Of a stretch of 64,000 nt of DNA, positions 7,174 through 62,574 are shown piece after piece (position 1 is the first letter of the stretch; every line of letters begins with the position of its first letter). The translations under genes were made by a program, and so were the position numbers. The notes beneath the pieces were generated by a model. The model had not been told where the DNA came from. It saw only the letters and a list, made by a program, of their open reading frames with translations, and ran no database searches. Origin of the DNA: Zygnema cylindricum (Eukaryota > Streptophyta > Zygnematophyceae > Zygnematales > Zygnemataceae); assembly GCA_037447655.1 (NCBI GenBank), contig JBBHKE010000190.1:621559-685558 (forward strand), written 5' to 3'.

Positions 7174-7190
7174 AAAGTAAATTAAACTTC

Positions 7191-8374: not shown

Positions 8375-8395
8375 TTGTATTCCTTCTGGGAAGAT

Positions 8396-9389: not shown

Positions 9390-9402
9390 GCCTAAACATT
9401 CT

Positions 9403-9730: not shown

Positions 9731-9774
9731 CATCCTTCCTCTAAAGCTTCCCGAATGGCTCCAAAAGCACACTT

Positions 9775-14697: not shown

Positions 14698-14936
14698 TCA
14701 GGACACTTCATAGCAGATTGTGTCAAGCTGTCGGAGCTGAGGCTCCAACAAACCGTGGAGGGGGTTCTTTCGGAGGGAAGAAAAAGGCACTTGTGGTCAC
14801 AAAAGTGAGAGGAGAGACCGCGGACGAGTCCTTTGAGGAGGAGGATGGGGAGCTTCTTCTTGACAAGAGTGTGCAAGAGAAGGAGATCCCTCGCAAACGT
14901 AAGTGTGCTCTCGGAGCAATTAGAGAAGCTCCATAG
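14698..14936 (+). pseudogene. Cop-G gag C-terminus
   Basis: Only the second half of the zinc knuckle (SGHFIADCVKLSELRL) and the lysine-rich tail (FGGKKKALVVTKVRGE) remain, split over two frames. It is a close match to Cop-E gag (10077-9775). The junction at 14698 is a deletion or truncation point. Confidence 0.8.
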
Positions 14937-14942
14937 GAAGGA

Positions 14943-16177: not shown

Positions 16178-16195
16178 GTCAAGCATTTAGTTATC

Positions 16196-17500
16196 ATGGA
16201 TAAAGGGAAGTCATTTGACCCCTTTAAATATACCAAGAAGATAAGATTCAGATTTGAGTCCGAAGGTGAGGAGGACTCGATCTTTCTCAAAAGGGATATA
16301 AGTGAAACAAGGATTGCAGATTCAACGGAGATCCAAGATACAAGAGATCCAACAGAAACCGCACATATTTCTATGGACTTCGAAGAGACAAAAGAGGAGG
16401 AACCGGAACCAGCTTCCATGCATAGGGAAGCCGATGAGATAGTAAAGAGATATCTAAGACTCCTCTCCATCCTAGCTTCAGATTTTGAGGGCGCGAGAAG
16501 GAGCAGCAAAATGATATAAGAAAAACAGGCCGCTCACAAGGTAGCTAAGCTATCTCGCCCAGATAAGCCTCAGTCATACTCGGAGGCAGTGATCAGGCCG
16601 GAGAAAGACAGATGGATTAGAGCCATAAATGAAGAGATGGCCTCCATCATATCAGCAAATACTTGGGAACTAGCAGGATGTCCTCCGGACAGAAAAACCA
16701 TTTGGGTATAAATGGGTGTTTAAACTAAAATTGAACCTAGATAATACCATTGAGAGATACAAGGCTCGACTAGTAGCAAATGGGTTCATCTAAAAAGAGG
16801 GGATTGACTATGAAGAGACTTTTGCTCAACTTGTTCGGCTCCCATCAGTAAGGATTCTCCTCAGTTTGGCAGTAGCAGAAGACATAGAAATACACCAGAT
16901 GGATATTAAGAATGCCTATAAACTTTTATGCGGCAACCAGAGAGGTTTGTGGAGGTAGGAGAAGACAGCAAAGTGTGCAGACTCATAAAGTCTTTATATG
17001 GACAGAAAGCAGGCTCCCCAACAGTGGAATAGGAAAGTAGATGAGTTTCTCACTAGTTTGGGATATATTCGGATCAGCTATGACCATTCTATCTATATGT
17101 TTGAAGATGAGAATGGTGTCATTTTTATTGCCATTTATGTGGATGATCTGCTTGTGTTAAGTAAGCTTTTGGAAAAGATGAATAAGTTAAAGAAAGATCC
17201 TAGAAGTAGAATTGACATGAAGGATTTGGGGGAGGCAAGATATATTTTGGGAATCCAAACAGAGAGAGATAGGGGGGAAAGTATTATCAAACTTACTTAG
17301 AAAGAAGCAATAGGTGATATGCTTAAAAAATTCCAGATAGAAAATGGAAACAGTTGTACCACTCCCATCGACTTGAAAAAAGTAAGTGAAAGGAGTGTAG
17401 AAGGAGGAATGATAATCTTATATGATTAGATGAATCTAGAGGAGAGAGAGTTTATGAAGACAGGTCGTAGGAAGTTTGGTCTAGTTTATGCACTGTACAA
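16196..17500 (+). pseudogene. Cop-G linker and reverse transcriptase
   Basis: An acidic linker (16196-16519) leads to RT. The first half is readable as RWIRAINEEMASIISANTWEL, then shatters by frameshift around 16700-16990. The second half (16998-17300) is clean: QAPQQWNRKVDEFLTSLGYI, GVIFIAIYVDDLLVLS with intact YVDD, and MKDLGEARYILGIQTERDRG. Near 17460-17520 the usual YRQVVGSLIYFMNCTRP region is scrambled. Confidence 0.88.
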
Positions 17501-17551
17501 GGCCGGACATAGCGAGACCAGCGAAGTCTTAACGATCCTAAAAAGAGAGAT

Positions 17552-18109
17552 TTGGAGGCAACCAAGAGAGTCATGCAATATCTGGTAGGAACCACAGAGT
17601 TATGGTTGCATTTGGGAGGGGAGCACACTGATATCACTACTTGGAGTGAAGCCAATTATAAGGATGCACCAATGAGAAGATGGACTTCTATGTATGTGTT
17701 GTATGTGGGGGAAGGTGTTTGTCGTTCGAGCACCAAGCAAAAAAAGGTGGTTGCGCAGTCTACCATGGAGGCAGAGTACATGTCCTCTTGTTCTGTTGTG
17801 AAAAAGTTGATGTGGGTCGAGTCCTTGTTGCAAGAATTAAGGTATATGAAGGAGGGAGTGTATGAAGTATTTTGTGATAATCAAGCTGCCATTGCAATTG
17901 CACCTAATCCAAAACATCATTTCAAGGCTAAGCGTATCTACATAAGATTGAGTTTTGTGAGAGAAAAAGTTGAAGATAAGATTGTGAATCTTGTATATAG
18001 ATCGGATGAGGAAATGGTGGCTGATATGATGACAAAGCCAGTGCCTTCTCCCAAGTTAAAATATTGCAGAGAAAAATGTGGACTAAAACTGAAGTTAAAG
18101 TTAGACTAG
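17552..18109 (+). pseudogene. Cop-G RNase H
   Basis: A clean 185-residue frame: RVMQYLVGTTELWLHLGGEH, WSEANYKDAPMRRWTS (the usual SDASY is SEANY, so a catalytic Asp is changed), KKVVAQSTMEAEYMSSCSVV, LMWVESLLQELRYM, EVFCDNQAAIAIAPNPKHHF, RIYIRLSFVREK and MVADMMTKPVPSPKLKYC. It ends at the polypurine tract just before 18123. The upstream part of the domain (CTRPNIAAAVGVLSR in relatives) is degraded. Confidence 0.85.
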
Positions 18110-18122
18110 AAAATAAAAGGAG

Positions 18123-19117
18123 TGTTGAAATTACTAGATTTATAGGGTATTTTCTCGGTCTAAATATATCAGTAAAATAGGAAAAAGAAAAGGGCGGATA
18201 GCCTGCCTCCACCTCCTCTCTCTAGCCAAAATACTTGTTGTAGTCACTGAAGGATAGAGAGGGTGGTTGAGCCATGGCTATCTGAAGTTTAACAAGCAGA
18301 TTAAAGACTGACTTATGTCACTCTCAAGAAAAGGTTAAGTCCGGCAAGAATCGAACCGGTCTGTCATTAAAATCCTTTACAAAACATGAGGTGTGATGTT
18401 TATTTAAATGTTGTTTCGAGGATCTAACCCGATTAATTAAATTACGGATAGAGTACATAGAGATTCCTTATAATACGGTACGGTACGTCATACACGAAAC
18501 AAATAAATAGGACATTTGTTTCAACGGCTGATACTGAATACCGGTTTGGATCCGACGGCGCATATCATCGCCGAGATTTCGGAATTGCCGCATTCGCGAT
18601 TTTTAGGGGTGACGTGACCTGACGCCACGTGTTGAGATTATATTGAAGAGTAGGAATCCCGAGGAGCATGAGGACAAGTGAGACAAAGACATGCGTCCAT
18701 CCAATGGCATTGCCGTACAAAGGCCGTACAAAAAGAACATAGGTCGTAGTACCTTTCTGTACTCTACATTCGTGTGATTTGTTAGTACGTCAGTAGATAA
18801 GGGTTGTGAGAGGGGTTTAGGACTTAGAGAATTTGGTAGGATGGGACCTCTCTCCATTATAGAGTTTTGTATAAACTTGGCATCTTTGCCTCTTCATAAC
18901 TTATCGGCTGGTTGACCATTTTTATTGATTCTTTTTGCTACGGACTCAACGAAGTCCAAATAGCACAAGGGTACAGTCAGACTATTAATTTGTCTGCTCG
19001 TGCATTAGTGTTTTTGGTTGAAAGTGGGTTCTAGTGGTTTTGGATGAAAGTGGGTCAGTTAAAAACTCTCTAGAGGCTTCCTAAATTTTGTAGGCCAATG
19101 GAGGACACAGAATTGCA
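18123..19117 (+). repeat. Cop-G 3' LTR
   Basis: Starts TGTTGAAATTAC after the polypurine tract AAAATAAAAGGAG and ends GAATTGCA. The last 25 bases contain ATGGAGGACACAGAATTGCA, the gag start of this LTR type. It is of the same type as 5526-6524. The right flank AAGCT has no readable partner because the left end of Cop-G is gone. Confidence 0.85.
18329..18360 (-). other. Deleted tRNA-like module in Cop-G LTR
   Basis: Minus strand GACAGACCGG is joined directly to TTCGATTCTTGCCGG, then TTTT. Compared with 12741-12820 the stretch between the A box and B box is missing, so the two box ends are fused. B-box-like sequence and T-run remain. Confidence 0.55.
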
Positions 19118-37329: not shown

Positions 37330-37344
37330 TCTTCAAACTTAAGG

Positions 37345-37782
37345 ACTCCAGCCATTGGAACATTACCAACAACACCTGGAGTTCGTATATGCTTTCGATG
37401 TGGTAACAGCGGTCACGACGCACGCGGCTGTCCGGATAAGACTGCCATCTGTACTCAATGTAATCAAACGGGTCATTATGTACATCAATGTCACATTAAA
37501 AATCCCGATCCCAGTTATCAAAATCAAATAAAAAACGGCGGTATACTTGCTCGCTCGGCAAAATTAGTCACTCAACCCAAAGGGGTAGAGAAAGACAACC
37601 CTCCAAAAATCAGCAGGAGGGACCGAGAGAAAGCCGAGATGCAGGCTACCGTAGCGGCTATGATGAAGGAGCAGTTTGCCGCGCTTATGGCGCAGGTCAA
37701 ACCGCAATTAACCGGAATGGCCCAAACTGTGGTCCACATGCCCTCTTTTGCTGGGCGATCTCTTCGAGAGTCCACCGTCTAA
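37345..37782 (+). pseudogene. Gyp-I Gag C-terminus, two zinc knuckles
   Basis: A 219-residue frame begins at 37123, but its first ~70 codons do not match Gyp-K and look unrelated. The Gag part has RTPAIGTLPTTPGVRICF and two CCHC knuckles, CFRCGNSGHDARGC and CTQCNQTGHYVHQC, then HIKNPDPSYQNQIKNGGI, a lysine-rich stretch and the A/Q-rich MAQVKPQLTGMAQTVVHMPS. The zinc knuckles bind element RNA. Gyp-K keeps the second knuckle (CTHCNQIGHYIHRC) but has lost the first Cys of knuckle one. Confidence 0.85.
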
Positions 37783-38530
37783 CAACGGACTGCTCAGCTT
37801 AAAGGGACTCCCGATCACAATCGCGAGTCAAAATCCATTAACACTCTTATCCCACTATCATTTGCTAAAGAAACCCGCTCACGTATTCCAGAAACGGCCT
37901 CTAGCATTACCGCTGAAGCATTAACTATTTTAGAGAGGAGCATACAAAACACCTATAAGGTCAAAGAACGTTTGTCAATCCTGTCCACCATGCTCCCAAA
38001 GTTAGATAGCATTGACGCTCCCAGAGTTAGATAACATTGACACAACAGTAGATCTAACTCCTTCAATTGTTGGGTTACAGGCATTACAAAACCATCATAA
38101 TGCTCTCTCCCTTCAAGCTAATACTCTTGAAAAGCGGTCTAGCCTCACTCCTCACATCAGTTTTCTAAATAACAAATTTGGCGTTTTTACGGTTAATGGG
38201 TTTGCTCCGGCACTTCCTCTCATGGATACAAGCGCAAAGCCAATTATCCTCGGTTCTGATTTTGCCATCAAAATAGGTCTTACAGCAGATAAACAACAAC
38301 CCACTACCACACGTCTATTGACTTCCGCAGGTACAACAAAGCCAGTCCTCGATATTACAATAGAACCAATCTGTTTTCAGTTTCAGAGTCAGTCAGCGAC
38401 GGATTTCGCAGAAATTTATGCTCATGCCATGGTCACCAAGTGTAGTGACTATGAATGCTTGGTCGGTCAAGATGTTATTTTTCGAGTTGGGGGGGGGGGG
38501 TTGATATGCACGATCAGACATTTTCGTACA
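37783..38530 (+). pseudogene. Gyp-I protease region
   Basis: After a stop at 37782 the reading continues with a helical region. In 38012-38617 a retropepsin-like domain shows the active-site strand LPLMDTSAKPIILGSDFAIK (DTSA in place of DTGA) and the second conserved strand DYECLVGQDVIF. It would process the polyprotein. A poly-G run near 38489-38498 may shift the frame. Gyp-K carries the matching segment at 52014-52830. Confidence 0.7.
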
Positions 38531-38558
38531 GACCTAACAACTTCCCGGAACGTAAAAT

Positions 38559-39890
38559 ATGCTAACCCGATATCTCGACCCGGGAACCCATGCCTACTAT
38601 GGCCCATTCGGCGCTGATCTTCCGAGCCTATGGGCGCTGATCTTCCCAGCCTATGCCGTAGTGAGCATAGGTGTAGACCTCTTTCAATCGCTAACAGCGG
38701 ATGAAATCTCACCAGATTCCTCGGGTTTACCAGAATTATTTAGTACATCCGGATTTACCATTGACTCTTCAGATTTTGACCGACTATATCAATTTACTAT
38801 GCCAATTCCTTTATCTAGTATTCCAGATCCACCCTCTATTACGAAATATCCTTCCGGGTTCTTGCCCATTAAATGGAAACCGGTCAAGTTACAACCTCAC
38901 CAAAGCGGTCTCGTTTTCTTAGATCTTTTTGCAGAAATAGGGACTTCACTTCTCTCTTGCTTTTGGAACGGTCTTCTGATAAAACATTACTATTCCGTAG
39001 ATATTGAGCCTTTGGCCAGACGCGCTCAATTGCACCACTGTCAAGTCTTGCATGAACACTATTCTCATCTCTTACCCCAATGTGCATTTCAAGACATGCA
39101 TTCGTCTTTGCCGTAGGATATCCGGCTAATAGGAAATCATCATCTTATGGAATTGGAGCCAATTGATCTCCTCTTTGCCAGATGGGAATGTCAGGGTATG
39201 TCTAGGGTCAGGAAATGTTTAGGTCTCGCCGATCCACGTACTAAGTTGTTTTTCGAGGTGGTGCGTCTTATCCACTTCTTCCAAAAACTGGACCGTCCTT
39301 TTGGATACATCTTAGAGAACGTCGCAGCTTATAATGACCCCCGACCTGCGGTCGTCGCAGATTATAAACGCATTGAATCATTAATTGGACCACCACTGAT
39401 CATTGATGCCGCACGCCACGGTTCGGTGGCCCACCGGGTTCGTTCCAAGTGGACTAACCTGGTGGACATGGGTCGGCTCCGAGAGGCTAACCTCGCTGTC
39501 CGACCACCTAACCTTTCCATTCAGGATGCACTTCTTCCATTTCATAAAGTCCAGACATGTATACTGGCAGACTATCCCCTTGCATTTAGTCTTAATATCC
39601 CGGGCCAGCCACTACGTGCACTGCCTACACTAGTTGCATACCCACACTCTCAAGCATACTCACATAATGGACCTGGCATGCTTCATAATACTCATACAGG
39701 CAGCTTAGATGAACCTACTGCCACACAACGAGAACATCTTTTACATTTCATCTCAGGCACCACTGCTGTTCCGAGACTCACCAAAAGCAGCGCTGCACCT
39801 TACTTGGTCCTGTCATGGATTCCAAATCGTTGTCATTTGTCTTAGGCATGGGGTTCGCAGCTGGTAGATACGCACAGAACCATCCGTCTC
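38559..39890 (+). pseudogene. Gyp-I cytosine-5 DNA methyltransferase domain
   Basis: Between protease and RT lies a C5-methyltransferase in DNMT3-like order. Motif I: LVFLDLFAEIGTSLLSC (38910-38960), then YYSVDIEPLARRA. Motif IV: LLFARWECQGMSRV, catalytic Cys codon 39189-39191, with Glu where Pro is usual. Next are FFEVVRLI and motif VI FGYILENVAAY (ENV at 39315-39323). A DNMT3-like segment LIIDAARHGSVAHRVRSKWT follows, then a target-recognition region and a motif X-like end (LVLSWIPN). The order I-IV-VI-X excludes the rearranged plant DRM type. One TAG (39114-39116) interrupts the frame between motifs I and IV, and a second stop lies at 39843. It would methylate cytosines, perhaps in the element's own or target DNA. 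Confidence 0.85.
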
Positions 39891-40170
39891 AATCAGCTGG
39901 GGGGGGCATACACCATTTAAACATACACCATTTAAACACACAGCTTCCAAGTCCTCACCTTCTCTTCAGGGTACAACTTTTCAGCTTGCTCTTTTTCCTT
40001 TTCGCGCTAAGTCTGACACAGATCACACTATTTATGATTTTTTGGAACCTAGTCACATGAATTGTTCTCTCCCACCATACACGGCTGCTAGATCTTAGGT
40101 AGCGGTACGGGCATCACGACATTGGACAACTGCATTTCCATCTAGAAGTTGGCATCACGCAATAATTTTT

Positions 40171-41900
40171 TTGCATCAACTTCCTGTCGAGTATGAGTTG
40201 GGTCACTCCTTGATAGCAGATGAACAACTAGCATTTGCACAGGCCATGGAAGCCATGACCATCACCACGCCCGAAAACCAGACATGGAAATTTGGAACGG
40301 GACTAACAAAAACGGAACACGAACTTTTGGATAAAGTCGTAAACCGAAACGTAGATGCATTTGCTCTCTCCATGAAAAACTTAGGTCGAAAAACAACTTA
40401 CAAAATGTCCATTTACCTCGAAGATGACAGACCTATATTTAAGCCCAAGCATCGTCTATCAAAAACTGAATGGGAATTCGTGGACAAACGATGCGCAGAG
40501 TATGCTTATCAAAAACTGAATGGGAATTCGTGGACAAACGATGCGCAGAGTTAGAAGAGGCAGTTCTGATTTATAGGTCCGATTCCACCATTGCAGCGCC
40601 CACTGTCATGCCTCATAAGAAAGACGCAGAGGGGAATTTTACAAAACGTCGCATGTGTGGGACTACCGGGAACTAAATTCACGTACAATCTAAAACCGAC
40701 ATTCAATACTGTTGGGTGAGGAAATTTTTGATCATGTTGGAGGAGCTAAATATTTCAGCATCCTAGATCTACGACAGGGATTTAATCAAATCTAAATAGA
40801 GGAAAAGGATAGACACAAGATTGCATTTTGGGGTAGTGCCGGACGTTGGGAATGGGCGGTTATGCCCTTTGGACTGAAAAATGCCATGGCGGTATTCCAA
40901 AAAGTCATGGACTCAGTCTTGGGGGGATGTAAGTTTGCCCGTTGCTATATCAACGATCTAATCATCCCTTCAGCCTCTATAGAGGAACATGCAGTGTATA
41001 TGGAGTGGGTATTGAAGGAATTAAAAAAGGTAGGACTAAAATGTCATCCTGCCAAATGCACTTTTGGGGCCGAAAGTGTACCCTATCTTCGGCACTTTAT
41101 TTCATCCGAGGGAATTACTCTGTTAGAAGTCAAAGTGGAAGCAATTAGTAAACTCCCGGCCCTAAAATATTTGACTAGCCTGCGTGCATTTCTGGGGTTA
41201 GCAAATTATTACCGACAGTTTGTTCCTAGTTTCAGCACACTTGCATCTCCACTGAATGAACTCTTGAAGAACTCGGTTCCGTTCACGTGCAGACCCTTCC
41301 AGATCGAGGCATTTCATGGATTAAAGGACCCACTGTCCACCGCTCCTATTCTTCGTCCCCCAAATCATAAGTTGCCATTTTGCCTACAGACGGACTTTGG
41401 TAAGTTCGGTATTGTAGCCATCCTAACTCAATGTGAACTCACAGGTGAGGAATATGTGGTGGCTTATGCCAGTCGGAGCAACAATCAAGCGGAGTAAAAT
41501 TATAGTAGTTATTAGGGGGAGTGCCTTGCCGCAGTTTGGGGTATTGTACATTTTCCGACATTAACTCTATGGCAAGCCTTTTACCCTTCTTACTGACCAT
41601 CAACCATTGCATTGGCTCATGACCAATGACAAGCTATCCAGTAAATTAGCACGTTGGGCTCTTATTTTACAAGAATATGACATGGAAATAATCCATCAAC
41701 CTGGGCTCCTCAGTTTGAATGCCGACGGCCTCTATCTGGCAAATTAGCCCGTTGGGCTCTTATTTTACAAGAATATGACATGGAAATAATCCATCGACTC
41801 GTGCTCCTCAGTTTGAATGCCGACGGCCTCTCCAGAAACCATTTGCCCCACTCCAATGATAATGGTGTGCGACAGGATTTTGATGACGGATCAGTTGCCT
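40171..41900 (+). pseudogene. Gyp-I reverse transcriptase and RNase H
   Basis: 40171-40554 is the RT N-terminus (DKVVNRNVDAFALSMKNLGR, IYLEDDRPIFKPKHRLS). Fragments follow, then GAKYFSILDLRQGFNQI, WAVMPFGLKNAMAVFQKVMD and CYINDLIIP, where YIDD of the family has become YIND. Thumb and connection: FGAESVPYLRHFISSEG, LRAFLGLANYYRQFVPSFST. RNase H begins PFCLQTDFGKFGIVAILTQ and includes TDHQPLHWLMTNDKLSSKLA. Two internal tandem duplications (44 bp at 40457/40507; ~98 bp at ~41635/41733) disrupt it. Confidence 0.9.
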
Positions 41901-42079
41901 CCTGATCAGCCAGAGCACATCTGATTTACAGTTTTGCAGCACCTACAAGCCACAAAACCGAACACGATCCATGGCGGGACAGTGTTTTAATTATCTTCCT
42001 ATGTGCACAGTCTTTCCAGGCAGGCACCCTACCAATAAAAGAGGAGCGTGTTCGTAAGAGGGCCCAAAGTAACTTATGG

Positions 42080-43167
42080 ATGGGGGGCTCACTTATTCGT
42101 CTTCTCTCAAACAGAAGTCACCAGCATGTCCCACGGCCGACGGAACGATTATCACTTATCAACCAAATTCATACTGATCTTGGACACTATGGCACCAAAC
42201 GGACTTTGAGTTTAGTACAGGCACGGTACTGGTGGTCCGGCATGCAGGCTGATGTGGTGGTTGTGTTGCAGGAATGCAGCACATGTGACCGGCTACGAAC
42301 TTCATTTTCAAAAGGACAAACCTCCATTCAGTCCTTGCCTATTCGGGGTCTATTTCACAGGTGGTCTGTGATCTTGCGGGTCCCTTTCCCATTTCTCGAC
42401 AGGGGCAAACAATACATCATGATAATGATTGTGAATTTCAATAAATGGGTGGAAGTTGTGGCACTCTCGCAGAAAACTGCCAAACTTACCACCTCAGCTT
42501 TTAAGGAGCACGTGCTCCTCCGATATGGATCCCCCGCAGAAGTACTTATTGACCAAGGAACCGAGTTCCGTGGCGAATTTCAAGAGATGCTGGACAAGGC
42601 GTTAATCGATCACCGGCGGACGAGCCGAGATCATCCTCAAGCAGACGGTTTGGCAGAGAGAGCTGTACAAACCTTTAAGCGTGCTTTGCGTAAACATTGC
42701 TTGGAAAAACAGATTACGGTGTGGGATGAATCATTGTGATATATTGTCATAGGTTATCACATGTCTGTACAGGCCAGCCTGGCAAATTTCAACCCCTATT
42801 ATGTGTTGTTTGGTTGAAACCACTACTAGGTAGGAATTTACAGAAAGCCGCGAGCTTACTTCTACCTCTTATGTGTGATTCTCTATTTTTGGAAGAACCA
42901 ACTAACCGAGCATTGCTTTTTGCTAGAGAAATACCCATTGCCTTTGAAAACTTGCAGATTGCCCAACATCACGACTCCTTACGGTTTGCGACGACTCGCA
43001 GTGGTAGCTACCGGCCACAATAAAAACCCTTCCAGGTGGGGGATTACGTTTATTTGCGGCGGCAAACTTTTGAGACACTCGACACAGATGTTTCGGCTCA
43101 CATTTTGAGGATAACCAAAATCGACGCCAATGGATTATAAAGCTTACAAAAGGCCAACACGCAAACT
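42080..43167 (+). pseudogene. Gyp-I integrase
   Basis: Zinc-binding N-terminus: IHTDLGHYGTKRTLS, QARYWWSGM and CSTCDRLR (HHCC). Core: GKQYIMIMIVNFNKWVEVVA, AEVLIDQGTEFRGEFQEM and HPQADGLAERAVQTFKRALR, with the second Asp and the Glu visible. The first Asp region is shifted out of frame (DLAGPFP is readable in another frame near 42370). After a stop at 42737 the C-terminal part continues in other frames: LQIAQHHDSLRFATTRSGSY, VGDYVYLRRQ and LREHLKNCAPCYLPDL. It joins the PHD region without a gap. Confidence 0.88.
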
Positions 43168-43440
43168 TTGCGGGAGCATTTGAAAAATTGTGCCCCTTGC
43201 TATCTACCCGACCTTTCCCACAGTATGGACCCGTGGTGGTTGTCAATTACTGAGGCCACTGAGTGTCAGTTGTGTCGACGATCTGATGAAGAAACAACAA
43301 TGCTTCTCTGCGACTATTGCAATCTGGGATTCCATATGGAGTGTTTGGTTCCACCTTTGCATACTATCCCGACTAGACAGTGGTTTTGCCACGGATGTCG
43401 CGACCTATCGACTGGTTTTATAAGCTCCTCCGAAGGCTAA
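43168..43440 (+). CDS. Gyp-I integrase C-terminus with PHD finger
   Basis: A 91-codon frame: the end of the integrase tail (REHLKNCAPCYLPDLSHSMD) followed by a complete Cys4-His-Cys3 PHD finger. Metal ligands are ECQLC, LLCDYC, FHMEC and WFCHGC, with the typical C-terminal Trp two residues before the seventh Cys. PHD fingers read histone H3 tails. Chromoviruses carry a chromodomain at this place to steer integration, so a PHD here may do the same job. The frame ends 15 bases before the polypurine run and LTR. Gyp-K has a degenerate copy at 47396-47545. Confidence 0.87.
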   Translation: MREHLKNCAPCYLPDLSHSMDPWWLSITEATECQLCRRSDEETTMLLCDYCNLGFHMECLVPPLHTIPTRQWFCHGCRDLSTGFISSSEG

Positions 43441-43457
43441 GGAGCTGGGGGGGGGGG

Positions 43458-44345
43458 GAAATTCCATCCTTAGTTACCCACTCTTCTTTTGTCTTTTATT
43501 TCCTTGCTAAGTCCAGGTGTTCGGAATAATTTGCTTGTTTTTCGGGCATATTCATTTATTATTTCTTGCACTATATATGCTTTGTACTCCGATTGTGGTC
43601 ACAAATACTGTACATATGTAATGGTCATTCATTTTTTGGTGTTTATCGGTGACCCACGCGGGATTTGATGCATGCCATTCACGGTTGTACTGTCATGCAC
43701 GACAGCTGTCATGCCGTAAGACGTTAGCGGGTATTGTGTTTAAATCGGGTACTAATTGAAGTTTTGGTGACGTGACAGGTTCATATCCGAGAGTACAACT
43801 AGAGATTCGTACAGGACAAAGGTCGGAATATACTCTCGTACGCTACCACGGGAACACTATGTGAAATCAGCGTGGAACTAGACCGCGGTACGGCGTCAGA
43901 CGTCAGGAATTCAAACAGCTACAAACCTGACTGGTGTCTGAAGTCATGAACCCTTGGAGGTTCATGCATCATTTTTGCTTAGCTTAGGGAGGGTTTTTAT
44001 CCTGGAGGTGTAGATGTAAGGTAGTCCGAGGCGGCCACGCAGCGGTCTACTCTTGAAAATGGGAGTGTTTTAATATAAAAAACCTGCCTGCTCAGAGACA
44101 TGTATGAATTAGTGTTGCCGTACGGATTAGTGAAAGCATATGATAAATGCCATTTGGCGAGATAGTAACTTTTGCAAATTAAGTACGGGAATCCAACATT
44201 GGAAGGTTGTCGTTTTCTGACAAGCATTATTCCCGGGATTTGTCGAACTCTATCATTTAGGTTTCACCTAAATATTTAGTGACAGGCTAGCTTTTGAGCT
44301 AGGGTTTTTCATTTTTCTATACCCATAGTTTCATGCTAGTAATTG
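43458..44345 (+). repeat. Gyp-I 3' LTR, 3' truncated
   Basis: Follows a G12 polypurine run. Homologous to the Gyp-K LTR read on the minus strand (shared GTGGTCACAAATACTGTACA-like, GATGCATGCCATTCAC, CATGCACGACAGCT, GAGGCGGCCACGCAGCGG). It breaks off at ~44345, where Gyp-J begins. Confidence 0.8.
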
Positions 44346-44357
44346 TTCTAGTTTCAT

Positions 44358-45296
44358 GCTTAGAAAACGAATAAGTGAGCCCCCCATCCATAAGTAACTT
44401 TGGGCCCTCTTACGAACACGCTCCTCTTCCATTGGTAGGGTGCCCGCCCGGAAAGACTGTGTAGATAGGAAAAGAATTAAAGCACTGTCCCGCCATGGAT
44501 CGTGTTTGGTTTTGTGGCTTGTAGGTGCTGTAAAACTGTAAATTAGATGTGCTCCGGGTGATAAGGAGGCAACTGATCCGTCATCAAAATCCTGCCGCAC
44601 ACCATTATCATTGGTGTGGGGCAAACACCATTATCATTAGTGTGGGGCAAATGGTTCCTGGAGAGGCCGTCGGCATTCAAACTGAGGAGCTTGGGTCGAT
44701 GGATTATTTCCATGTCATATTCTTGTAAAATAAGAGCCCAACGGGCTAATTTACTGGATAGCTTGTCATTGGTCAAGAGCCAATGCAATGGTTGATGGTC
44801 AGTAAGAAGGGTAAAAGGCTTGCCATAGATATAATGTCGGAAATGTACAATACTCTAAACTGCGGCAAGGCACTCCCGCTCATAACTACTGTAATTTGAC
44901 TCCGCTTGATTGTTGCTCCGACTACTATAAGCCACCACATATTCCTCACCTGTGAGTTTACGCTGAGTTAGGATGGCTGCAATACCGGGCTTACCAGAGT
45001 CCGTCTATAGGCAAAATGGCAACTTATTATTTGGGGGACGAAGAATAGGAGCGGTGGACAGTGCGTGCTTTAATCCTTGAAATGCCTCAATCTGGGAGGG
45101 TCCCCACGTGAACGGAACTGACTTCTTCAAGAGTTCATTCAGTGGAGATGCAAGTGTGCTGAAACTAGGAACAAACCGTCGGTAATAATTTGCTAACCCC
45201 AAGAATGCATGCAGGCTAGTCAAATCTGTTGGGGCCGGGAGTTTACTAATTGCATCCACTTTGACTTCTAACGGAGTAATTCCCTCGGATGAAATA
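44358..45296 (-). pseudogene. Gyp-J: RT thumb, RNase H and integrase start
   Basis: A minus-strand fragment equal to about 41120-42100 of Gyp-I: LTSLHAFLGLANYYRRFVPS, FTWGPSQIEAFQGLKHALST, RPPNNKLPFCL, then HWLLTNDKLSSKLARWALIL and SLNADGLSRNHLPHTNDNG. A 27-bp tandem duplication (CACCATTATCATTGGTGTGG) is at ~44600-44655. It forms an inverted repeat of ~950 bp with Gyp-I. Confidence 0.85.
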
Positions 45297-45543
45297 GAAA
45301 TATTATCCTTACTTACCCGATCTTGTTTTGTCTTTTATTTCCTTGTTAAGTCCAGGTGTTCGGAATATTTTGCTTGTTTTTCGGGCATATTTATTTATTA
45401 TTTCTTGCACTATATATGCTTTGTACTCCGATTGTGGTCACAAATACTGTACATATGTAATGGTCATTTATTTTTCTGGTGTTTATCGGTGACCCTCGCG
45501 GGATGTGATGCATGCCATTCACGCTTGTACTGTCATGCACGAC
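45297..45543 (+). repeat. Gypsy LTR fragment
   Basis: Matches the first ~245 bp of the Gyp-I LTR (43464-43700) in the same orientation, ending at CATGCACGACA. Joined on the left to Gyp-J and on the right to the kinase-like fragment. Confidence 0.85.
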
Positions 45544-45651
45544 AAGGCTTCTGTGAAAAACAAAAAAAAATGGTCGTGAAGGTTAGTTTTTTGTAAAGAG
45601 GTGAGTCATTAAAGACACACAATAAAGGTGAGTCATGAAGATGACGAAACA

Positions 45652-45847: not shown

Positions 45848-45857
45848 NNNNNNNNNN
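45848..45857. other. Assembly gap (10 N)
   Basis: Ten N bases. The true distance and order across this point are uncertain. 45858-46017 beyond it shows nothing recognisable. Confidence 0.99.
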
Positions 45858-47348: not shown

Positions 47349-47395
47349 CCCCCCTTTAGTTCCTTAGTCTGCAGAGGAGCTGGGAAGGACAGTTG

Positions 47396-48430
47396 GCACG
47401 TAGCGACATCGTTGGCAGAACCACAGTCTAGCTGGGATAGCGTGCAAAGGTGGAACCAAACACTCCATATGAATCCGAGGTTGCAATAGTCACAAAAAAG
47501 TATTTTTGTTTCTCCATCGGACTAGCGGCAAAACTTACACTCAGTGGCCTTCGTAATTGGCATCTGCCACGAGTCCATGCTGTGGGTAAGATCGGGCAAG
47601 TAGCAAATGGGAACAATTCTTTGAATGCTCTCGTAAAGTTTGCGTTTCTGCCCCTTATAAGCCCAATAATCCATTGAAGTCGATTTTCGTAATCCTTAAA
47701 ATGTGAGGTGAAACATCCGTGTCTAGGGTGTTAAAGGTTTGCCGTCGCAAATAAACATAATCTCCCACCGGGAAGGGTTTTTGTTGAGGACGGTAACTGC
47801 CACTGCGAGTTGTTGCAAACCGTAACGAGTCGCGGTGTTGAGCAATCTGCAAATTTTCAAAATCCATTGGCATTTCCCTAGCAAAGAGCAATGCTTGGTT
47901 AGTTAGTTCTTCCAAAAAAAAAAGCATCTGACATAAGAGGTAAACTAGCGGCTTTCTGTACATTTTTGCCTAGCAGTGGTTTGCGACCGAATAACACATA
48001 ATAGGGGCTGAAAATTACCAAACTGGCCTGTAGAAACATTTGATTACCCATGACAATATACCCCAATGATTCATCCCACACGGTAATCTGCTTTTCTAGG
48101 CAATGGTTACGCAAAGCAGGCTTAAAGGTTTGAACAGCTTTCTCTGCCAAACCGTCTGCTTTAGGATGATCTCGACTTCTCTATCGGTTGGTTTGTAAGT
48201 ACTTTTGCAGGGGCCTGTATCGGAGGAGCACATGCTCTTTGACAGCCGCGGTGGTGAGTTTGGCCGTTATTTGTGGGAGAGCCACCACTTTCACCCATTT
48301 GCTGAAATTTTTGATGATAATCATAATGTACTATTTCCCCTTTTAAGAAATTGGAAAGGGACATGCAAGGTCATAGGACCATCTGTAGAAGAGCCCTCAA
48401 ATCGGGAGGGGTTGAAGGGTGGATTGCCGT
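47396..48430 (-). pseudogene. Gyp-K integrase and degenerate PHD finger
   Basis: Integrase pieces: KAVQTFKPALRNHCLEKQIT, VWDESLGYIVMGNQMF, IAQHRDSLRFATTRSGSYRP and VGDYVYLRRQTFNTLDTDVS. A deletion near 48180 removes the segment with the second catalytic Asp. The PHD remnant (47545-47396) keeps the first Cys pair around a stop, then FCDYCNLGF; the H-x2-C pair and later ligands are damaged by frameshift. Confidence 0.8.
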
Positions 48431-48533
48431 TTTGAAAACAAGGTTCGTAGCCGGTTACATATGCTCCATTCTTGCAACATAGCCGCCACATTAGCTTGCA
48501 TGCCCGACCACCAATACCGTGCCTGTACCAAGC

Positions 48534-50110
48534 TCAAATTCCATTTGTTTCCCTTAATATGTTTCCCTTAATATCCGAGGTCATATTGAATCTGGTTGAT
48601 AAGTGATAGTCGTTCCGTTGGCTGAGGAACGTGCCGATGACTTCCATCTGCGAGGAGACGGATAAGTGAGCCCCCCATCCACAAGTAACTTTGGGCTCTC
48701 TTTTGCACGCGCTCCTATTTCCATGGTAGGGTGCCCTCTCGCAAAAATTGATTTTATAGAAATAGGTTAATAATCGTTTTCTCGCCATAGATCGTGTTTG
48801 CTTTTGTGGTATGTAAGTGCTAAAAACTTGAAGATCAGATGCGCTCTCGCCGATAGGGAGGCAAGTGTTTCGCCATTAAAATCCTGTTGTACACCATTAT
48901 CAATAGAGTAAAGCAAAGGGTTCTTGGAGGGCTCGTCGTTATTCAAGCTGAAGAGCCCTGGTTGATGAAATATTTTCATATCATATTTTTGTAAAATAAG
49001 AGCCTCACCGGCTAATTTGCCAGATAGCTTGTCATTGGTCATAAGCCAATGCAGTGGTTGATAGTTAATAAAAAGGGTTAAAGGATTGCCATAGAGATAA
49101 TGTCGGGAGTGCACAATACCCCAAACTGCAGCAAGACATTCTCCCTTATAACTACTATAATTTGAATTCGCTTGATTGTTGCCTCTACTCCGCTTGATTG
49201 TTCCTTCTACTGGCGTAGGCCACCACATATTCCTCACCTGTGAGTTCGTGTTGAGTTAGGATGGCAGCAATACCGGGCTTACCAAAGTCGGCCAGTAGAC
49301 AAAACGGTAATTTATGATTTGGGGGACGAATGATGGGAGCGGTGGACAGTGTGTCCTTTAATCCCTAAAATGCCTCGATCTGAGAGGGTCCCCATGTGAA
49401 CGGGATTAATTTCTTCAAGAGTTCATTTAGTGGAGATGCAAGTGTGCTACAACTAAGAACAAACCGCCGGTTATAATTGGCTAACCCGAAGAATGCATGC
49501 AGGCTAGTCAAATCAGTTCAGGCCGGAAGTTTACTAATTGCTTCCACTTTGACTTCTAGCGGAATAATTCCCTCAGATGAGATAAAATGCCTAAGGTATG
49601 GGACCCCTTCGGCCCCAAAGGTACATTCGTCAAGATGACATTTAAGTCTACCTTTTTTAATTCCTTCAACATCCATTCTATATGAACTCCATGTTCCTCC
49701 TATGGTAGCGTAAGCGATGATCACATCGTCGATACAGCAACGAGCAAACTTACACCCCCCCAAGACTGAGTCCATGACATTCTTGAATAGAGCCGATGCA
49801 TTTTTCAGTCAAAAAGGCATAAGCGCCCATTCCCAAACTCAGTCATTACCCCAAAATCCAGTCTTGTGTGGGTCCTTTTCCTCTATCTCGATTTGGTTAA
49901 ACCCCTGTCGCAGATCTAGAATACTAAAATATTTAGCTCCTCTGACGTGATAAAAAATGTCCTCTGTCAACGACATTGGATGCCTGTCCTGGATCGTACG
50001 TGAGTTTAGTTCTCTGTAGTCCCCACACATACGACGTTCATTAAAATAACCCTCTGAGTCTTTTTTACGAGGCATGACGGTGGGCGGCGCGAAGGTGGAA
50101 TCGCACCTTT
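48534..50110 (-). pseudogene. Gyp-K reverse transcriptase and RNase H
   Basis: RT: RRMCGDYRELNSRTIQDRHP, VRGAKYFSILDLRQGFNQIE, then CCIDDVIIA, in which the DD pair is intact but the preceding Tyr is Cys, and FGAEGVPYLRHFISSEG. RNase H: KGECLAAVWGIVHSRHYLYG, QPLHWLMTNDKLSGKLA. Several frameshifts. Confidence 0.87.
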
Positions 50111-50729
50111 AAATCAAACCTGCTTACTCTAATTCTGCGCATCATTTGGCCACGGATTCCCATTCCGTTTCTGATAGATGATGCTTGGGTTTAAATATGG
50201 GTCTTTCTTCCTCTAGGTCGATGGATATTTTGTAAGTGGAGTGCCAACCTAAGTTTTTCATAGAGAAAGCCAATGCGTCCCTATGTCAGTTATTGACTCC
50301 ATCTAACAGTTCATGTTCAGTTTTTGATAGTCGAGTTCTAAATTTCCATGTCGGTTTTTTTTAGGCGTGTTAATTGTCATGGCTTCCATAGCTTATGCAA
50401 ATGCTAGCTGTTCATCTACTATCAAGGAGTGCCCCAAATCATACTCGAATCAGAGGTAAGCAATTAGAGACTGCATGATGCCAACTTCTAGCCGGAAATG
50501 CAGCTTTCCACTGTGGGGAAACTTGGACGGATGCCTAAGACCTAGCGGCGGTGTATGATGGGAGAGACCAACCCATATAACTACGGACCAAAAAATCATA
50601 AATAGTGTGAGATGTTTTTGACTTGGCAGCGGAAGGAAAGAGGAAGAGCTAGAAAGTTGTACCCCGGAGAGAAGATGCAGCTTAGATGTTGTATGTTTAA
50701 ATAGTGTATGAAATGGTGAATGCCCCCCC

Positions 50730-52041
50730 CCCGCTGATTGAGAATGATTGTTCTGTGCATATCAACCAGATGCAAACCCCAAGCCCAAGACGAATGAAAA
50801 TTATTGCGGATCCATGACCCGACCAAGTAAGGTGCAGTGATGTCGCTTGGTGAGTCCCGAGGCGGCAATAGTGTCTGGAATGAAATGTAAAAGATGTTCT
50901 TCTTCTGCAGCAGTTAGTTTTTCTAAGCTGCCTGTATGAGTATTTTGAAGCATGCCCAGTCCATTATGTGAGTATGCATTAGAGTGTGGATATGCAACTA
51001 GTGTAGGCAATGCTCGTAGTGGCTGGCCCGGAATGTTAAGACCAAATGCAGGAGGATAGTCTGTCTGTATACATGTCTGGACCTTATGAAATGGAAGGAC
51101 TGCATCCCGAATGGAGAGGTTAGGTGGTCGAACAGCGAGGATAGCTTCTCGGAGCCGACCCATGTCCACCAGGTTAGTCCACTTGGAACGAACAGGTTAG
51201 TCCACTTGGAACAAACCCGGAGGGCCGGCCAACCGTGGCGTGCGGCATCGATGATCAACGGTGGTCCAATCAATGATTCAATGCGTTTATAATCAGCGAG
51301 AACCGTAGGTCGTGGATCATTATATGCCGCGATATTTTCTAAGATGTATCAGAAAAGACAGCTTAGTGTTTGAATGAAATGGATAAGACACACTACCTCA
51401 AAGAACAACTTAGTACGCGGATCTGCAAGACCTAAATCTTTTCTGGCCCTAGACATTCCCTGACATTCCCATCTTGCAAAGAGGATGTCAATTGGTTCTA
51501 ATTCCAACAAATGGTGATTTCCTATAAGCCGGATATCCTATGGTAAAGCCGAATGCATGTCGTAAAAGGCGGAAAGGGGTAAGAGGTGAGGATATTATTC
51601 ATGCAAGATATGACAGTGGTGAAATTGGGCGCGTCTAGCCAAGGGGTCAATATCTATAGAATAGTAATGCTTTACAATAAGACCGTTTCGAAGGCAAGAG
51701 AGGAGGGAAGTTCCTATTTTTTTCAAAAGGTCTAAGATAACGAGACCGTCTTGGTGAGGTTGCATATTGACCGGTTTCCAATTAATGGGCAAAAACCCGA
51801 ACGGATCCATCGTAATGGAGGGTGGATCCGGAATACTAGATAAAGAAATTAGTATAGTAAATTTATAAAGTTGGTTTAAATATGAACAGTTTATGATAAA
51901 TCCGGTTTGAATGAATGATTCTGGTATTCCGAAAGGGTCTAATGAGATTACTTCCACTGTTAATGATTCAAGAATGTCCGCCGTTATGCCAACTGCGGCA
52001 TGGGGATGCAAGATCAGCGCGAAATGAGCCGTAGTAGGCAT
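50730..52041 (-). pseudogene. Gyp-K cytosine-5 DNA methyltransferase domain
   Basis: Motif I region: GLVILDLLKKIGTSLLSCLR and YYSIDIDPLARRAQFHHC. Motif IV: LFARWECQGMSRAR (near 51470), with the same Glu-Cys as Gyp-I. LADPRTKLFFEVV follows, then IGPPLIIDAARHG, and the motif X-like end GSWIRN with WAWGLHLVDMHRTI (50868-50730). A TAG at ~51540 occupies the same codon as 39114-39116 in Gyp-I (after DMHSALP, before DIRLIGNHH). Extra frameshifts are present. The shared layout shows the methyltransferase was part of the family before the copies split. Confidence 0.85.
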
Positions 52042-52830
52042 GGGTTACCGAGGGGAGATAAGAGGTAAGCAGATTTTGCTTTCCGGAAAATTGTTTGGTC
52101 TGTAAGAAAATGTTTGATCGTGCATATCAACCACCCCCCCCCTACTCGGAAAATTACGTATTGGCCAACAAGGCATTCATAATCACTACACTTGGTGACC
52201 AAGTCGACTGGTTCCTTTGTAATTTTGAGGATTGTTTTTGTGGTGAGTGCGGAGGTCAAAAGACGTGTGGTTGTAGGTCGTAATTTTTATGTTGTAAGAC
52301 CTATTTTGACAGCAAAATCTTACCCAAGGAAAATCGGTTTAACGCTTGTGTCCATGAGAGGTAATGCCGAGCAGACCCATTAAGTGTGAATACTCCTAGT
52401 TTGTTATCCAAAAACTTATCTGCGGTGTAAAACTGGCGCGCTCTTCAAAAGTGATAGCTTGAAGAGAGAGTGAGTTTCGATTATTCTGAAGGGCCTGTAA
52501 TGCATGTGCAAATTGCTCAAATTGAGTTAGATCCGCGGATTTGGTGTCCAGTACCAGATCTAGAAGCATAGTAGAAAATATTGAAAACCGCTCTTTGACC
52601 TTATAGGTGTCTTGGATATTTTCCTCTAGGATTGTTAGTGCCTCAACTGTGATGCAGTAAGGGGTTTCCGGAATAGGTGAGAGGGTTTGTTTAGCAAATG
52701 ATAATGGGATACGAGTGTTAATAGACTTTGACTCGCGGTTATGATCGGGAGTCCCTTTGAACTGAGCTGCCTGTTGTTGAAGAGTGGACTCCCACAGAGA
52801 TCGGCCTGCGAATGAGGGCATGTGAACCAC
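52042..52830 (-). pseudogene. Gyp-K protease region
   Basis: VHMPSFAGRSLWESTLQQQA, AQFKGTPDHNRESKSI and LQALQNNRNSLSLQAITFEE match Gyp-I before its protease. VTKCSDYECLVGQYVIFRVG matches the second protease strand. The DTSA strand is lost in shifted sequence around 52270-52400. Confidence 0.7.
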
Positions 52831-55286: not shown

Positions 55287-56126
55287 TGTTATTTTAAGAA
55301 AGCTTTAGTCCTCTCTATGCCTCTGCAGTGAGGGAGAGAGAGCTATTTAAGACTTAAGCTATTTTTGGTTTGAGTTCAGTTCTCTGGTTACTAAAATTAG
55401 TGTGACAATGAAGTTGGTAGTTCAGGGTTCATTCACACTTGGGACACGCGTCGTCACTTGAGAGAAATACATGAGTATGTCCTCCGTGGACGTACGGAAT
55501 TTCGGCATGACCAAGAAACTTCGTGAAGTCAATTCTACGGTGCCAAATCCTCTAATCCGACGGTTGATAGTTGCGGCCAAAAAATACTGACGAGGCGTGA
55601 CTAGATCACTATCACTTTACGTTGTCTGAACTTTGGTGTAAATATTTGGTAGAATAAAATTTTGTCTGTAGTGAATTAGTTGTTTAGTGTTGAGAATGTG
55701 GTTTATGACATACCTTTAGTACACAGGTATACTCATAGTATTTGTTGTGTTAGAATGTTATATGTACATCTGGAATGCCTCCGTACAACTTAGTGTAGTT
55801 TCGGTGTATAGAAGTAGGACTTAGTGAATTTGATTCATTAGGAACAAATGATATGAAAATTGTACCCTCAGTTTTATGTTATTTCATTCCTCCATATCTA
55901 ACAAATCTGAGAGCGGACTTCATTGAAATGTTGTATGTGTGTTTTTTTTTATGTTATCTAAACTATGGTAAATTTTCAAGACCATTAAATCATTTTTCTA
56001 AAAGTTATAGTCTGTCAAAGTTTCTATTCAGCCATCGGTATTTGTGGAAGCTTCCTCTTTTGATTTGTTCTTAAATGAATACTGCTGCATCTTCTTCATC
56101 TTTAGTGCCAGCTGTTGCCTCAGAAC
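55287..56126 (+). repeat. Cop-L 5' LTR
   Basis: From TGTTATTTTAAGAAAGC to about CAGAACA. It aligns with 59913-60620 (AGTTCA..GGTTCATTCACACTT, GACACGCGTCGTCACTTGAG, CGTGGACGTACGGAA) with few differences. The end is set by the primer-binding site and is uncertain by a few bases. Confidence 0.82.
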
Positions 56127-59912: not shown

Positions 59913-60620
59913 TGTTGTTTTTAGAAAGCTTTAGTACTCTCTATGCCTCAGTTGTGAGGGAGAGAGAGCTATTCAGGACTTAAGCTATTTTTGGTTGAGT
60001 TCGGTTTAGTGGTTACTAAAATTAGTGTGACAGTGAAGTTGGGAGTTCACGGTTCATTCACACTTGGGACACGCGTCGTCACTTGAGAGAAATGTGTGAG
60101 TATGTCCTCCGTGGACGTACGGAAATTCGGCATGACCACGAGACTTCGTGAAGTCAATTCTACGGTGCTAAATCCTCTAATTCGACGGTTAACAGCCGCC
60201 GCCAACAAATACAACAAGGCGTGACTAGATCACTATCACTTTACGTTGCCTGAACTTGGTGTAAATATTTGGTAGAATAGAATTTTGTCTGTAGTGAATT
60301 ACTTGTTTAGTGTTGAGAATGTGGTTTATGACATACCTTCTGTACATATGTGTACTCACAATATTTGTTGTGTTAGAATGTTATATGTACGGTTGGAATG
60401 CCTCCGAACAGCTTAGTGTAGTTTCGGTGTATAGAAGTAGGACTTAGTGAATTTGATTCATTAGGAACAAATGATATGAAAATTTTACCCTCAGTTTTAT
60501 GTAATTTCATTTATGCATATCTCAGAGATCTGTCAGCGAAATTCATTGAAATTTTGTGTGTGTGTTTTTTTGTATGTTATCTACACTGTGGTAAATTTTC
60601 AAAACCATTGGATCATTTTT
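59913..60620 (+). repeat. Cop-L 3' LTR, 3' truncated
   Basis: TGTTGTTTTTAGAAAGC after the polypurine tract. It follows the 5' LTR closely to AAAACCATTGGATCATTTTT, then turns into unrelated sequence at ~60620. Confidence 0.85.
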
Positions 60621-60759
60621 ATGAAGAATAAAACCAATCGCATTTTTAACCTAATTTAGTCAAATATTTTTAGAAACTTTTGTAGAACGAGAAAAAAAAT
60701 GGTTGCTTGATATGAGTGATATCAAATATTCTTCTCTAAATGGTTTTGTACTGGTGTAG

Positions 60760-61345
60760 CCACAACCGCCTCCTCATTCCTCTCATTTCCCTTCTCCTCC
60801 TTACAAATCCCCACCTCTTTGTCCCATTCCTTCTCCCTCGCCTCCTTCAAAATCCCCACATCGTCACCCCCCTCCAACCTCACATTCTTCAAAATCTCCA
60901 CCTCCGCGTCAATCCCCTCCTCCCTTACGTCCTTCAAAATCTCCACCTCCTCGTCGATCCCCTCCTCCCTTACCTTCTTCAAAATCTCCACCTCCTCGTC
61001 GATCCCCTCCCCCCTCCTCCTTGCAATCCCTTCCTCCCCGTCGATCCCCTCCTCCCCGTCGATCCCCTCCTCCCTTACCTCCTTCAAAATCTCCACCTCC
61101 TTGTCGAACTCCTTCCCCCTTACCTCCTTCAAAATATGCACCTCCTCGTCGATCCCCTACCCGCTTACTTCCTTCAAAATCTCCACCTCCTCGTCAATCC
61201 CCTCCCCCCTTACCTCCTTCAAAATCTCTATCGTCTTGTCAATCCCCTCCCCCCTTACATCCTTCAAAATCTCCACCTCCCTGTCGATCCCCTCCTCCCT
61301 TACCTCCTTCAAAATCTCTACCTCCTCGTGCGCGTCCTTTGTTGA
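60760..61345. repeat. 45-bp minisatellite, open in several frames
   Basis: Twelve or so units of about 45 bp (CCTCCTTCAAAATCTCCACC, then TCGTCGATCCCCTCCTCCCT). Because 45 is divisible by 3 and no unit holds a stop, long frames exist on both strands: a Pro/Ser-rich one on plus (PPPLPPSKSPPPRRS) and an acidic 15-residue repeat on minus (EVEILKEVREEGIDE). The plus frame resembles extensin-like wall proteins, the minus one a charged helix. Neither has a convincing gene context. Confidence 0.85.
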
Positions 61346-62574
61346 GAAAGTAAGAATTTGAACACGAAAGAAAAGTTCTTTTTGTCGGAACCAATACCGG
61401 TTGGAAAACACAACAAATGGAGACGAAGATAACTTAACATACTTAAATTATAAGGATTTGAGGAGACGGATGATTTGGGGGATTCATTTGCACGTTGTAG
61501 GTATGGTTTTGAATTCAGAAAGTTGTCGTTACTTTGATTGCTTATAACGTTTCAGGTTAGTCAAGTAACTTACTTTGATTGCTTATAACGTTTCAGGTTA
61601 GTCAAGTAACTTTGTTTTGCAATTTTCTGTTGATTTTTCTGCAAAGTTTTGCTTGTTTGTTTGTGTTGGTTTTTTTTTGTGTGACAATAGTTGCAATAGT
61701 ATTTTCCGACATAATCGGTTTAATGATGTTTTTTAAAGACACCTCCATGTATTTTTTTCCCTGGTTTTTAAAAGTTTGATTGCATTACAATTGAATTATA
61801 GGATATTTGTTGAATGGCGTAGGCTTGACCCTTTTTGATTTTATTTAGCTAGTCTCTACATTATATTTTGATGTGCTTTTATGTGTGCCTTCGAGGAGTG
61901 ATCGTGATCGAACAAATACATCCCAAATGACGATAGAGAAATGTTTACCTTCGTCCTTTCAATATATAAGCAAATTTTGTTACGATGTGGGATGCGGAAA
62001 TAGAGCGACAGCAAGAATAAAACACTATATATTATGTTGTTAACCACCTTGAGACAAAAATTGGATGACAACATTGAATATGAAGGAAATACATGCGAAA
62101 AAAAATCATGAATGACTTCTTGATAGCACAAGCAAACTTCAAAGTATAAGTATCGAAGTAGACAAATAAATTGGAGGATTCATGGTATGGCTTTTACGTC
62201 ACAAGGTCAATCATATTTTTACTACAAGTTTTGTTTCACTTTAGTTAAGTGCTTATGAAACTTTTTACTTATGTTTTTCTAATGTTTTTTGATTGTGTGT
62301 TTGACATTTTTAAAGCATCAATTTAAGCACTAGATCAAAAACCAACGACCCCGATACAAAAAGCATTTTTTTTTTACCGCTTGGCCTTCTATTACGTAAG
62401 CCAATTTGGAAAAATCGTGACGAACTCCCAAATTGGTGCGAAAACTCACCACATTTTAATCCCCATTTCCACCCCTTTATACCCTATTTTCATCGACTTG
62501 ATAATCGGTAGGTCCATCGAGAAACATCTACCAGTCACTACTAGTCACTTTCTGATCACAGTCAACCTGAAGTA
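61346..62574. other. No gene recognised; 41-bp tandem duplication
   Basis: AT-rich DNA. A 41-bp unit (ACTTTGATTGCTTATAACGT, TTCAGGTTAGTCAAGTAACT) is exactly duplicated at 61531-61571 and 61572-61612. Confidence 0.7.

Follow-up and report, generated by a model that had tools for sequence, protein, structure and literature searches.

The published case for retrotransposons that carry a cytosine methyltransferase of the Dnmt3 type rests on Klebsormidium and dinoflagellates, as presented in the text of de Mendoza et al. 2018 (PMC5890265). In Klebsormidium nitens, KnitGypsy-Dnmt3 is described there as a Gypsy element of the long terminal repeat (LTR) class with an intronless, non-rearranged Dnmt3 in its Pol open frame, under purifying selection (ratio of nonsynonymous to synonymous substitution rates, Ka/Ks, < 0.2) and, according to the legend of Fig. 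4c, with DIRS-type repeats combined with Gypsy coding domains. We analyzed a stretch of 64,000 nucleotides from Zygnema cylindricum (contig JBBHKE010000190.1, positions 621,559 to 685,558 of the forward strand; hereafter the window), which holds two decayed, opposite-strand copies of a Ty3/Gypsy-type retrotransposon family, copy 1 at 37342-45544 (+) and copy 2 at 55215-46148 (-). The polyprotein has the order gag, protease, DNMT3-like methyltransferase (MT), reverse transcriptase (RT), RNase H, DDE integrase and PHD finger. The kind of element is already known: as far as the text of that paper describes it, KnitGypsy-Dnmt3 resembles the window family in its Dnmt3 within Pol of a Gypsy element, its DIRS-type repeats and the purifying selection on its methyltransferase (PMC5890265). 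The precedent among retroelements to which an initial annotation of the window had pointed therefore exists and is closer than was stated. Taken as a whole, the element together with the mechanism proposed below is our best explanation of the data, at a probability of roughly 60%.

Both window MTs sit between protease and RT, as the initial annotation had read from motifs in two inverted copies. Its start at 38559 did not hold: the MT is an internal domain of the polyprotein, and the reading frame that opens with the ATG just downstream of 38559 agrees with that of the genomic copies only from about 38634 onward. The MT core of copy 1, with motifs I to X, lies at 38898-39901 and is read at 38898-39785 and then, in another frame, at 39782-39901; that of copy 2, likewise located by tblastn and as inverted repeats with copy 1, lies at 50729-51756 on the minus strand in two frames (51756-51193 and 51193-50729). 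In a profile search, the copy 1 MT with X at its one in-frame stop matches Pfam DNA_methylase significantly (E=2.1e-7), and its uninterrupted second half alone reaches 6.5e-7. The read-through of the same domain matches 29 PDB sequences (E<=0.01), all of them DNMT3A, 3B or 3C (best 2.3e-10). Motifs I, IV, VI, VIII and IX follow one another in the usual, unrearranged order rather than in the rearranged order of the DRM type, and the alignment with DNMT3A runs collinearly through motifs IV-VIII. The motif X-like end announced initially is present, but in copy 1 the end with motifs IX/X lies in a different frame; motif IV reads W-E-C-Q rather than P-C-Q (ARWECQ in both window copies, AGWECQ in most readable genomic copies).

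Twelve database relatives were compared, namely P0001-P0011, Gypsy-type proteins without name from a database of predicted proteins, and P0012, an unnamed protein product of the liverwort Calypogeia fissa; their MTs are 33-42% identical to that of the window family. With the fold taken from the relative P0010, DNMT3 is the closest match in both sequence and fold; DRM, DNMT1 and CMT do not appear among the 50 fold matches listed, which excludes none of them. P0012 itself matches PDB chain 4onj (E 0.018), which we take to be a DRM methyltransferase. When the window MT was compared with proteins of 0.55-1.75 times its length, none of 5124 candidates matched at E<=0.001, and one long polyprotein was found at raised query length; in IMG/VR, the MT and P0001 had 2 and 1 pattern matches, respectively, none of which was confirmed. 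Judged by kinship, the predicted enzyme of the element is a DNMT3-like C5-methyltransferase, and the Gypsy-type element with such an MT and an integrase-PHD end, as first proposed, is borne out by Pfam, PDB, tblastn and fold evidence.

Between the two window copies, the MT core (38881-39500) has a Ka/Ks of 0.22 (bootstrap 0.13-0.37), whereas wrong-frame readings of the same core yield 1.13 and 2.99. The MT likeness is therefore not a product of chance, and chance or degenerate motif matches, considered as a candidate explanation, were ruled out by this frame-specific ratio together with the PDB matches. The other domains of the window copies have values near that of the MT core, with 0.23 for RT-RNase H, 0.16 for the protease, 0.19 for the integrase and 0.28 for the PHD finger; the remaining comparisons gave 0.44 (0.19-0.90) for the C-terminal part of the MT and 0.63 for the first 325 nt after 38556, which are partly out of frame. 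For copies elsewhere in the genome, pairs with Ks above 0.1 were taken and the unsaturated ones used. Median Ka/Ks is 0.073 for the MT (17 unsaturated of 55 pairs), 0.085 for RT (7 of 45), 0.153 for the integrase (10 of 41), 0.153 for the protease (8 of 25), 0.186 for the PHD finger (7 of 33) and 0.207 for the segment between protease and MT core (6 of 35). Many of these copies were chosen for long open frames, which lowers Ka/Ks, so that the comparison between domains is fairer than the absolute values. The MT is under purifying selection as strong as that on RT. DNA methylation is a means by which many eukaryotes silence transposons, so that selection of this strength on an MT encoded by the element itself runs against expectation.

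Copies of the family were sought across the genome assembly (G000; 352.8 Mb in 2689 contigs). The MT gave at least 152 matches from 150 scored of 1539 first-look candidates, and open frames around an MT match extend up to 2395 codons; copies with an open MT therefore exist, which answers the question of intact copies raised by the initial annotation. Sixteen loci of 10 kb were read. All have protease, MT, RT, RNase H and integrase in this order with the MT always at the same place, CCHC being unmatched in L035 and the PHD finger in L034, and the integrase residues D, D and E are kept in 12 of the 16. Because the loci were located through the MT, family members lacking it are invisible to the search, and the count of 16/16 carries that bias. 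That the MT is a piece of a host gene which landed in a few copies by chance, a reading akin to the chance insertion that the initial annotation had held against itself, is already contradicted and deserves next to no credence: the MT lies in frame within the 2395-codon open frame and at a constant position, its matches are numerous, related MTs occur in retroelement proteins from other sources, and the domain is under purifying selection.

The domains around the MT were placed in both window copies by tblastn with those of a genomic copy and follow the order CCHC, protease, MT, RT, RNase H, integrase and PHD finger; the copies are 74-77% identical in two long blocks and 81-87% across the MT stretch. 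In copy 1, the gag CCHC zinc knuckles (37342-37722; Pfam zf-CCHC E 0.0012, just below cut-off) are followed by the aspartic protease with its linker (38138-38559; weak Asp_protease_2, below cut-off), by the two-frame extension from protease to MT core (38560-38897) and, beyond the MT, by a broken RT (40596-41254; RVT_1 E 8e-14), RNase H with a 98-nt tandem duplication (41285-41797; RT_RNaseH_2 E 1.7e-13), an integrase with H2C2 zinc finger, rve core and C-terminal part (42104-43212; Integrase_H2C2 2.5e-15, rve 8.2e-08) and the PHD finger (43213-43431; Pfam PHD E 3.4e-10 in a genomic copy). Copy 2 has, on the minus strand, a 5' untranslated region (55215-54662), gag (54474-53232) and CCHC (53218-52837), a protease (52072-52414), RT with RNase H (48956-50084) and integrase with PHD finger (47370-48654). 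This is the domain set of Ty3/Gypsy elements (CCHC, protease, RT, RNase H and rve) with an MT inserted, protease and CCHC being below the curated Pfam cut-offs. A tract of 8-10 G marks the MT/RT junction in 16/16 loci (L031:5082 and equivalents), preceded directly by CAGCT in 13 of them; in copy 1 it lies at 39899-39906 (CAGCT then 8 G). It shares AGCTGGGGGGGG with the tract that stands before repeat B1 downstream, and may be a central polypurine tract. A further G-tract between protease and MT (38489 in copy 1) occurs in 8 of the 16 loci, all of one subfamily.

The family departs from an ordinary Gypsy element at its ends. Instead of identical LTRs on both sides, direct repeats are split in the DIRS-like order A1-coding-B1-A2-B2 in five copies read with extended flanks (L031, L039, L041, L042 and L046) as well as in L035 and L037. 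B1 comes after a G-tract downstream of the end of the open frame, and the B1/A2 junction reads exactly CATGCACGACA-GC-TGTCATGC in 10 of 16 loci. Elements start with TGTCATGC and end with GCACGACA, that is, with TG...CA ends. Across seven copies, exact 4-bp target duplications flank four (L031 TTGG/TTGG, L042 TAGA/TAGA, L039 CCCT/CCCT, L041 TTGT/TTGT), 3 of 4 bases agree in two (L046 AAAG/AAGG, L037 TCAT/GCAT) and none is found in one (L033 GGGT/TAAT); four exact matches among seven copies greatly exceed chance expectation, which with equal base use is 1 in 256 per copy. TG...CA ends with a short target duplication are the mark of a Gypsy-type DDE integrase, whereas DIRS elements have a tyrosine recombinase and leave no target duplication. 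A tyrosine recombinase (PF00589) was not found in the whole open frame of one copy, scanned in four pieces. With an A-coding-B-A-B order, 4-bp duplications, conserved D, D, E and no tyrosine recombinase found, the family thus combines a DIRS-type layout with the enzyme and footprint of a DDE integrase. The A repeats also show that some insertions are recent, since one copy has A1 and A2 without a single difference over 931 nt and three more pairs are 99.1-99.6% alike; L046 (93.5%) and L037 (80%) are older.

The window copies fit the same scheme in part. In copy 1, B1 (43457-43704) begins at the end of the 3' G-tract (43447-43458), the junction CACGACA-GC-TGTCATGCC, a putative integrase cut site, lies at 43698-43715, and a truncated A2 (43707-44346, matching 627 of 931 nt) is separated from B2 (45305-45544, terminus GCACGACA) by an inverted fragment of the same family (44362-45299, minus strand; RT end, RNase H and spacer). 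Copy 2 has B1 (47347-47106) and A2 (47094-46148). The left repeat A1 of either copy was not found within the window. It could be argued that the repeats are an ordinary LTR pair misread owing to tandem copies or solo LTRs, as B1-GC-A2 alone could pass for a 3' LTR and B2 for the start of a second one. We consider this highly improbable: extended flanks, read for five copies on different contigs, revealed no B at the left end and in every case a B2 after A2, and four of these copies have exact target duplications beyond A1 and B2, which largely contradicts an ordinary-LTR reading.

A mechanism that would connect these features starts with the MT being produced along with RT and integrase and released by the protease, so that it would be carried in the particle. 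Reverse transcription would then yield complementary DNA (cDNA) with the LTR B-GC-A, and circularization would create the A|B joint seen in the copies. Provided that reverse transcription makes B-GC-A as the LTR, the integration ends would lie inside it, at a palindrome: the DDE integrase would cut CACGACA-GC-TGTCATG within the LTR on both strands, with GC dropped like the dinucleotide of 3'-processing. A two-LTR circle cut at one GC would give exactly A-coding-B-GC-A-B, with A|B as the joint of the circle. Cuts between CA and GC on both strands leave recessed CA ends as in ordinary 3'-processing. The cut DNA would be inserted with a 4-bp duplication, possibly guided to marked chromatin by the PHD finger. 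HIV-1 integrase cuts its own palindromic 2-LTR junction in vitro, according to the text of PMC1905944. We regard this course of events, from the particle-borne MT through circular cDNA to the palindrome cut by a DDE integrase, as probable. In a last step, the MT might methylate cytosines of the nuclear cDNA or circle, which would then pass as host-like DNA or be shielded until integration; this role of the MT is possible, at somewhat less than even odds. Methylation of cDNA has been proposed for DIRS elements by de Mendoza et al. (text of PMC5890265).

Several observations weigh against this picture, some of them at the repeats. The B1/A2 junction is altered in 3 and not found in 3 of the 16 loci, A1 of L032 was not found in 1.3 kb of added left flank, and L033 consists of A1-coding-B1 only and, checked as a product of a 1-LTR circle, shows no target duplication in its flanks. 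None of six copies has TGG directly after A1; a transfer RNA primer site is therefore not evident and the reverse-transcription step is unsupported at this point. On the side of the enzyme, neither window MT is intact, each being interrupted by one or more in-frame stops as well as a frame break, so that the two window copies cannot methylate DNA as they stand. L041 and L042, whose A repeats are 99.6 and 99.1% alike, have different 1-nt deletions in the MT core, which means that an intact MT in cis may be unneeded or that the breaks post-date insertion. Together with L043, they account for three different 1-nt deletions within ~35 nt, near locus position 4300, at the catalytic motif of the MT, which makes this place a candidate hotspot of frame breaks; small deletions also occur near motif I in L038 and upstream of motif IV in L046, much of the remaining MT being open. 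Such deletions early in the MT core may be due to chance, or MT loss may be favored in some copies. When both window copies are taken together with 36 loci (38 copies, some with partial coverage), the indels that break the frame cluster most densely at the first G-tract; in a diverged subfamily, many of the gaps counted come in compensating pairs and look like alignment artefacts.

Motif IV adds to these points. WEC stands in place of the Pro-Cys typical of DNMT3 in all 15 loci covered, and proline is likewise replaced by glutamate in P0006, P0008, P0011 and P0012. The DNMT of KnitGypsy-Dnmt3 gave no methylation in yeast, a result that its authors call inconclusive (text of PMC5890265). CpG observed/expected is 0.76-0.94 in 15 family copies, against 0.34-0.66 in four Copia stretches of unmatched age; being only mildly below expectation, it indicates no marked CpG decay in the element. 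All three would suit a DNMT-like domain that no longer methylates and is retained for nucleic-acid binding, particle structure or RNA. Against such a loss of activity, 8 of the 16 loci retain every one of the eleven residues checked in motifs I, IV, VI and VIII (in seven of the others the best aligned stretch misses at least one of them, and L045 carries changes), the Ka/Ks of 0.073 takes in the catalytic core, and the usual PCQ, within WPC, is present in P0001-P0005, P0007, P0009 and P0010; we judge it unlikely. Alternatively, the target of the MT could be host chromatin at the insertion site or in its surroundings, or the MT could damp transcription of the element, in either case earning host tolerance. 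The fusion of integrase and PHD finger suggests a link to chromatin, the copies in the genome are many, and slowed transposition to the benefit of the host is one of the ideas put forward in the text of PMC5890265, but the same lack of marked CpG depletion in the element argues against it, and we think this rather unlikely. Methylation of a nuclear intermediate by a particle-borne MT remains the reading that we prefer for the element.

Other features of the window lie outside the two copies or at their borders. Ten N at 45848-45857 probably mark an assembly gap. Just past the 5' end of copy 2, direct repeats of 90% identity (55287-55997 and 59913-60620), probably LTRs, flank Copia-type open frames. 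Further open frames labeled Copia-type by eye comprise the inverted, 89% identical stretches 102-4473 and 25887-21530 and the stretches 6291-9977 and 14702-18356. A low-complexity tandem repeat at 60720-61361 is open in three frames, and an Rfam scan of the window gave no match. At the level of the assembly (G000), LEAFY (PF01698) was uninformative as a marker of lineage, having no match there or in any of 14 controls.

Among the database relatives, the place of the MT varies. RT and/or RNase H are present in P0001-P0007, integrase in P0007-P0011 and a PHD finger in P0007 and P0009. The MT, 36-42% identical in P0001-P0011 to that of L031, follows RNase H in P0001-P0007 and stands just before the integrase in P0007-P0011, unlike the window family with its MT between protease and RT. 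The tail of P0008 (MT-integrase) matches the Tudor-type PTM_DIR17 weakly (E 0.014) and an adenine methylase more weakly still (E 0.069), both below cut-off. P0012 has the protease followed by the MT, as in the window family, and motif IV WECQGFSRAG; its MT is 38-40% identical to the family, the match stopping before motif IX, and groups with it in an unrooted tree of retroelement sequences (support 76). On these sequences, a single relocation of the MT would be as compatible as two captures, which P0001-P0012 and the window family do not separate.

In chromodomain Gypsy elements (chromoviruses), the Gypsy integrase is fused to a chromatin-reading domain; the window family has a PHD finger instead, and no chromodomain match was obtained in the Pfam scan. 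No other report of a Gypsy element with Dnmt3 was among the titles found in the open-licence literature. Eleven of the 12 database relatives have the MT elsewhere than between protease and RT, a position that may be new, KnitGypsy-Dnmt3 having been compared by the text of its paper and not by the figures (PMC5890265). The main text of that paper contains the words 'PHD' and 'protease' 0 times and mentions target duplications for LINE elements only; measured against it, the MT-before-RT order, the PHD end, the target duplications and the palindrome model seem to be new details. From the repeat ends comes a proposal, open to direct testing, for the way in which a DDE integrase can operate on DIRS-like repeats and for a possible link between circular DNA and an MT. 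That a whole Gypsy-type lineage with a DDE integrase might integrate only after circularization, through an att-like palindrome in its LTR, with its own DNMT3 methylating the circular nuclear intermediate, is a doubtful, tentative extension. A parallel in layout is SymbioDIRS-Dnmt3 of dinoflagellates, which, in the description given in the text of PMC5890265, likewise has Dnmt3 in Pol and A-coding-B-A-B repeats but uses a tyrosine recombinase, whereas the window family has an rve DDE integrase and 4-bp duplications. If the extension were true, DIRS-like repeats would have two origins, one alongside a tyrosine recombinase and the other alongside a DDE integrase, with the MT, present in both, tied to the circular stage.
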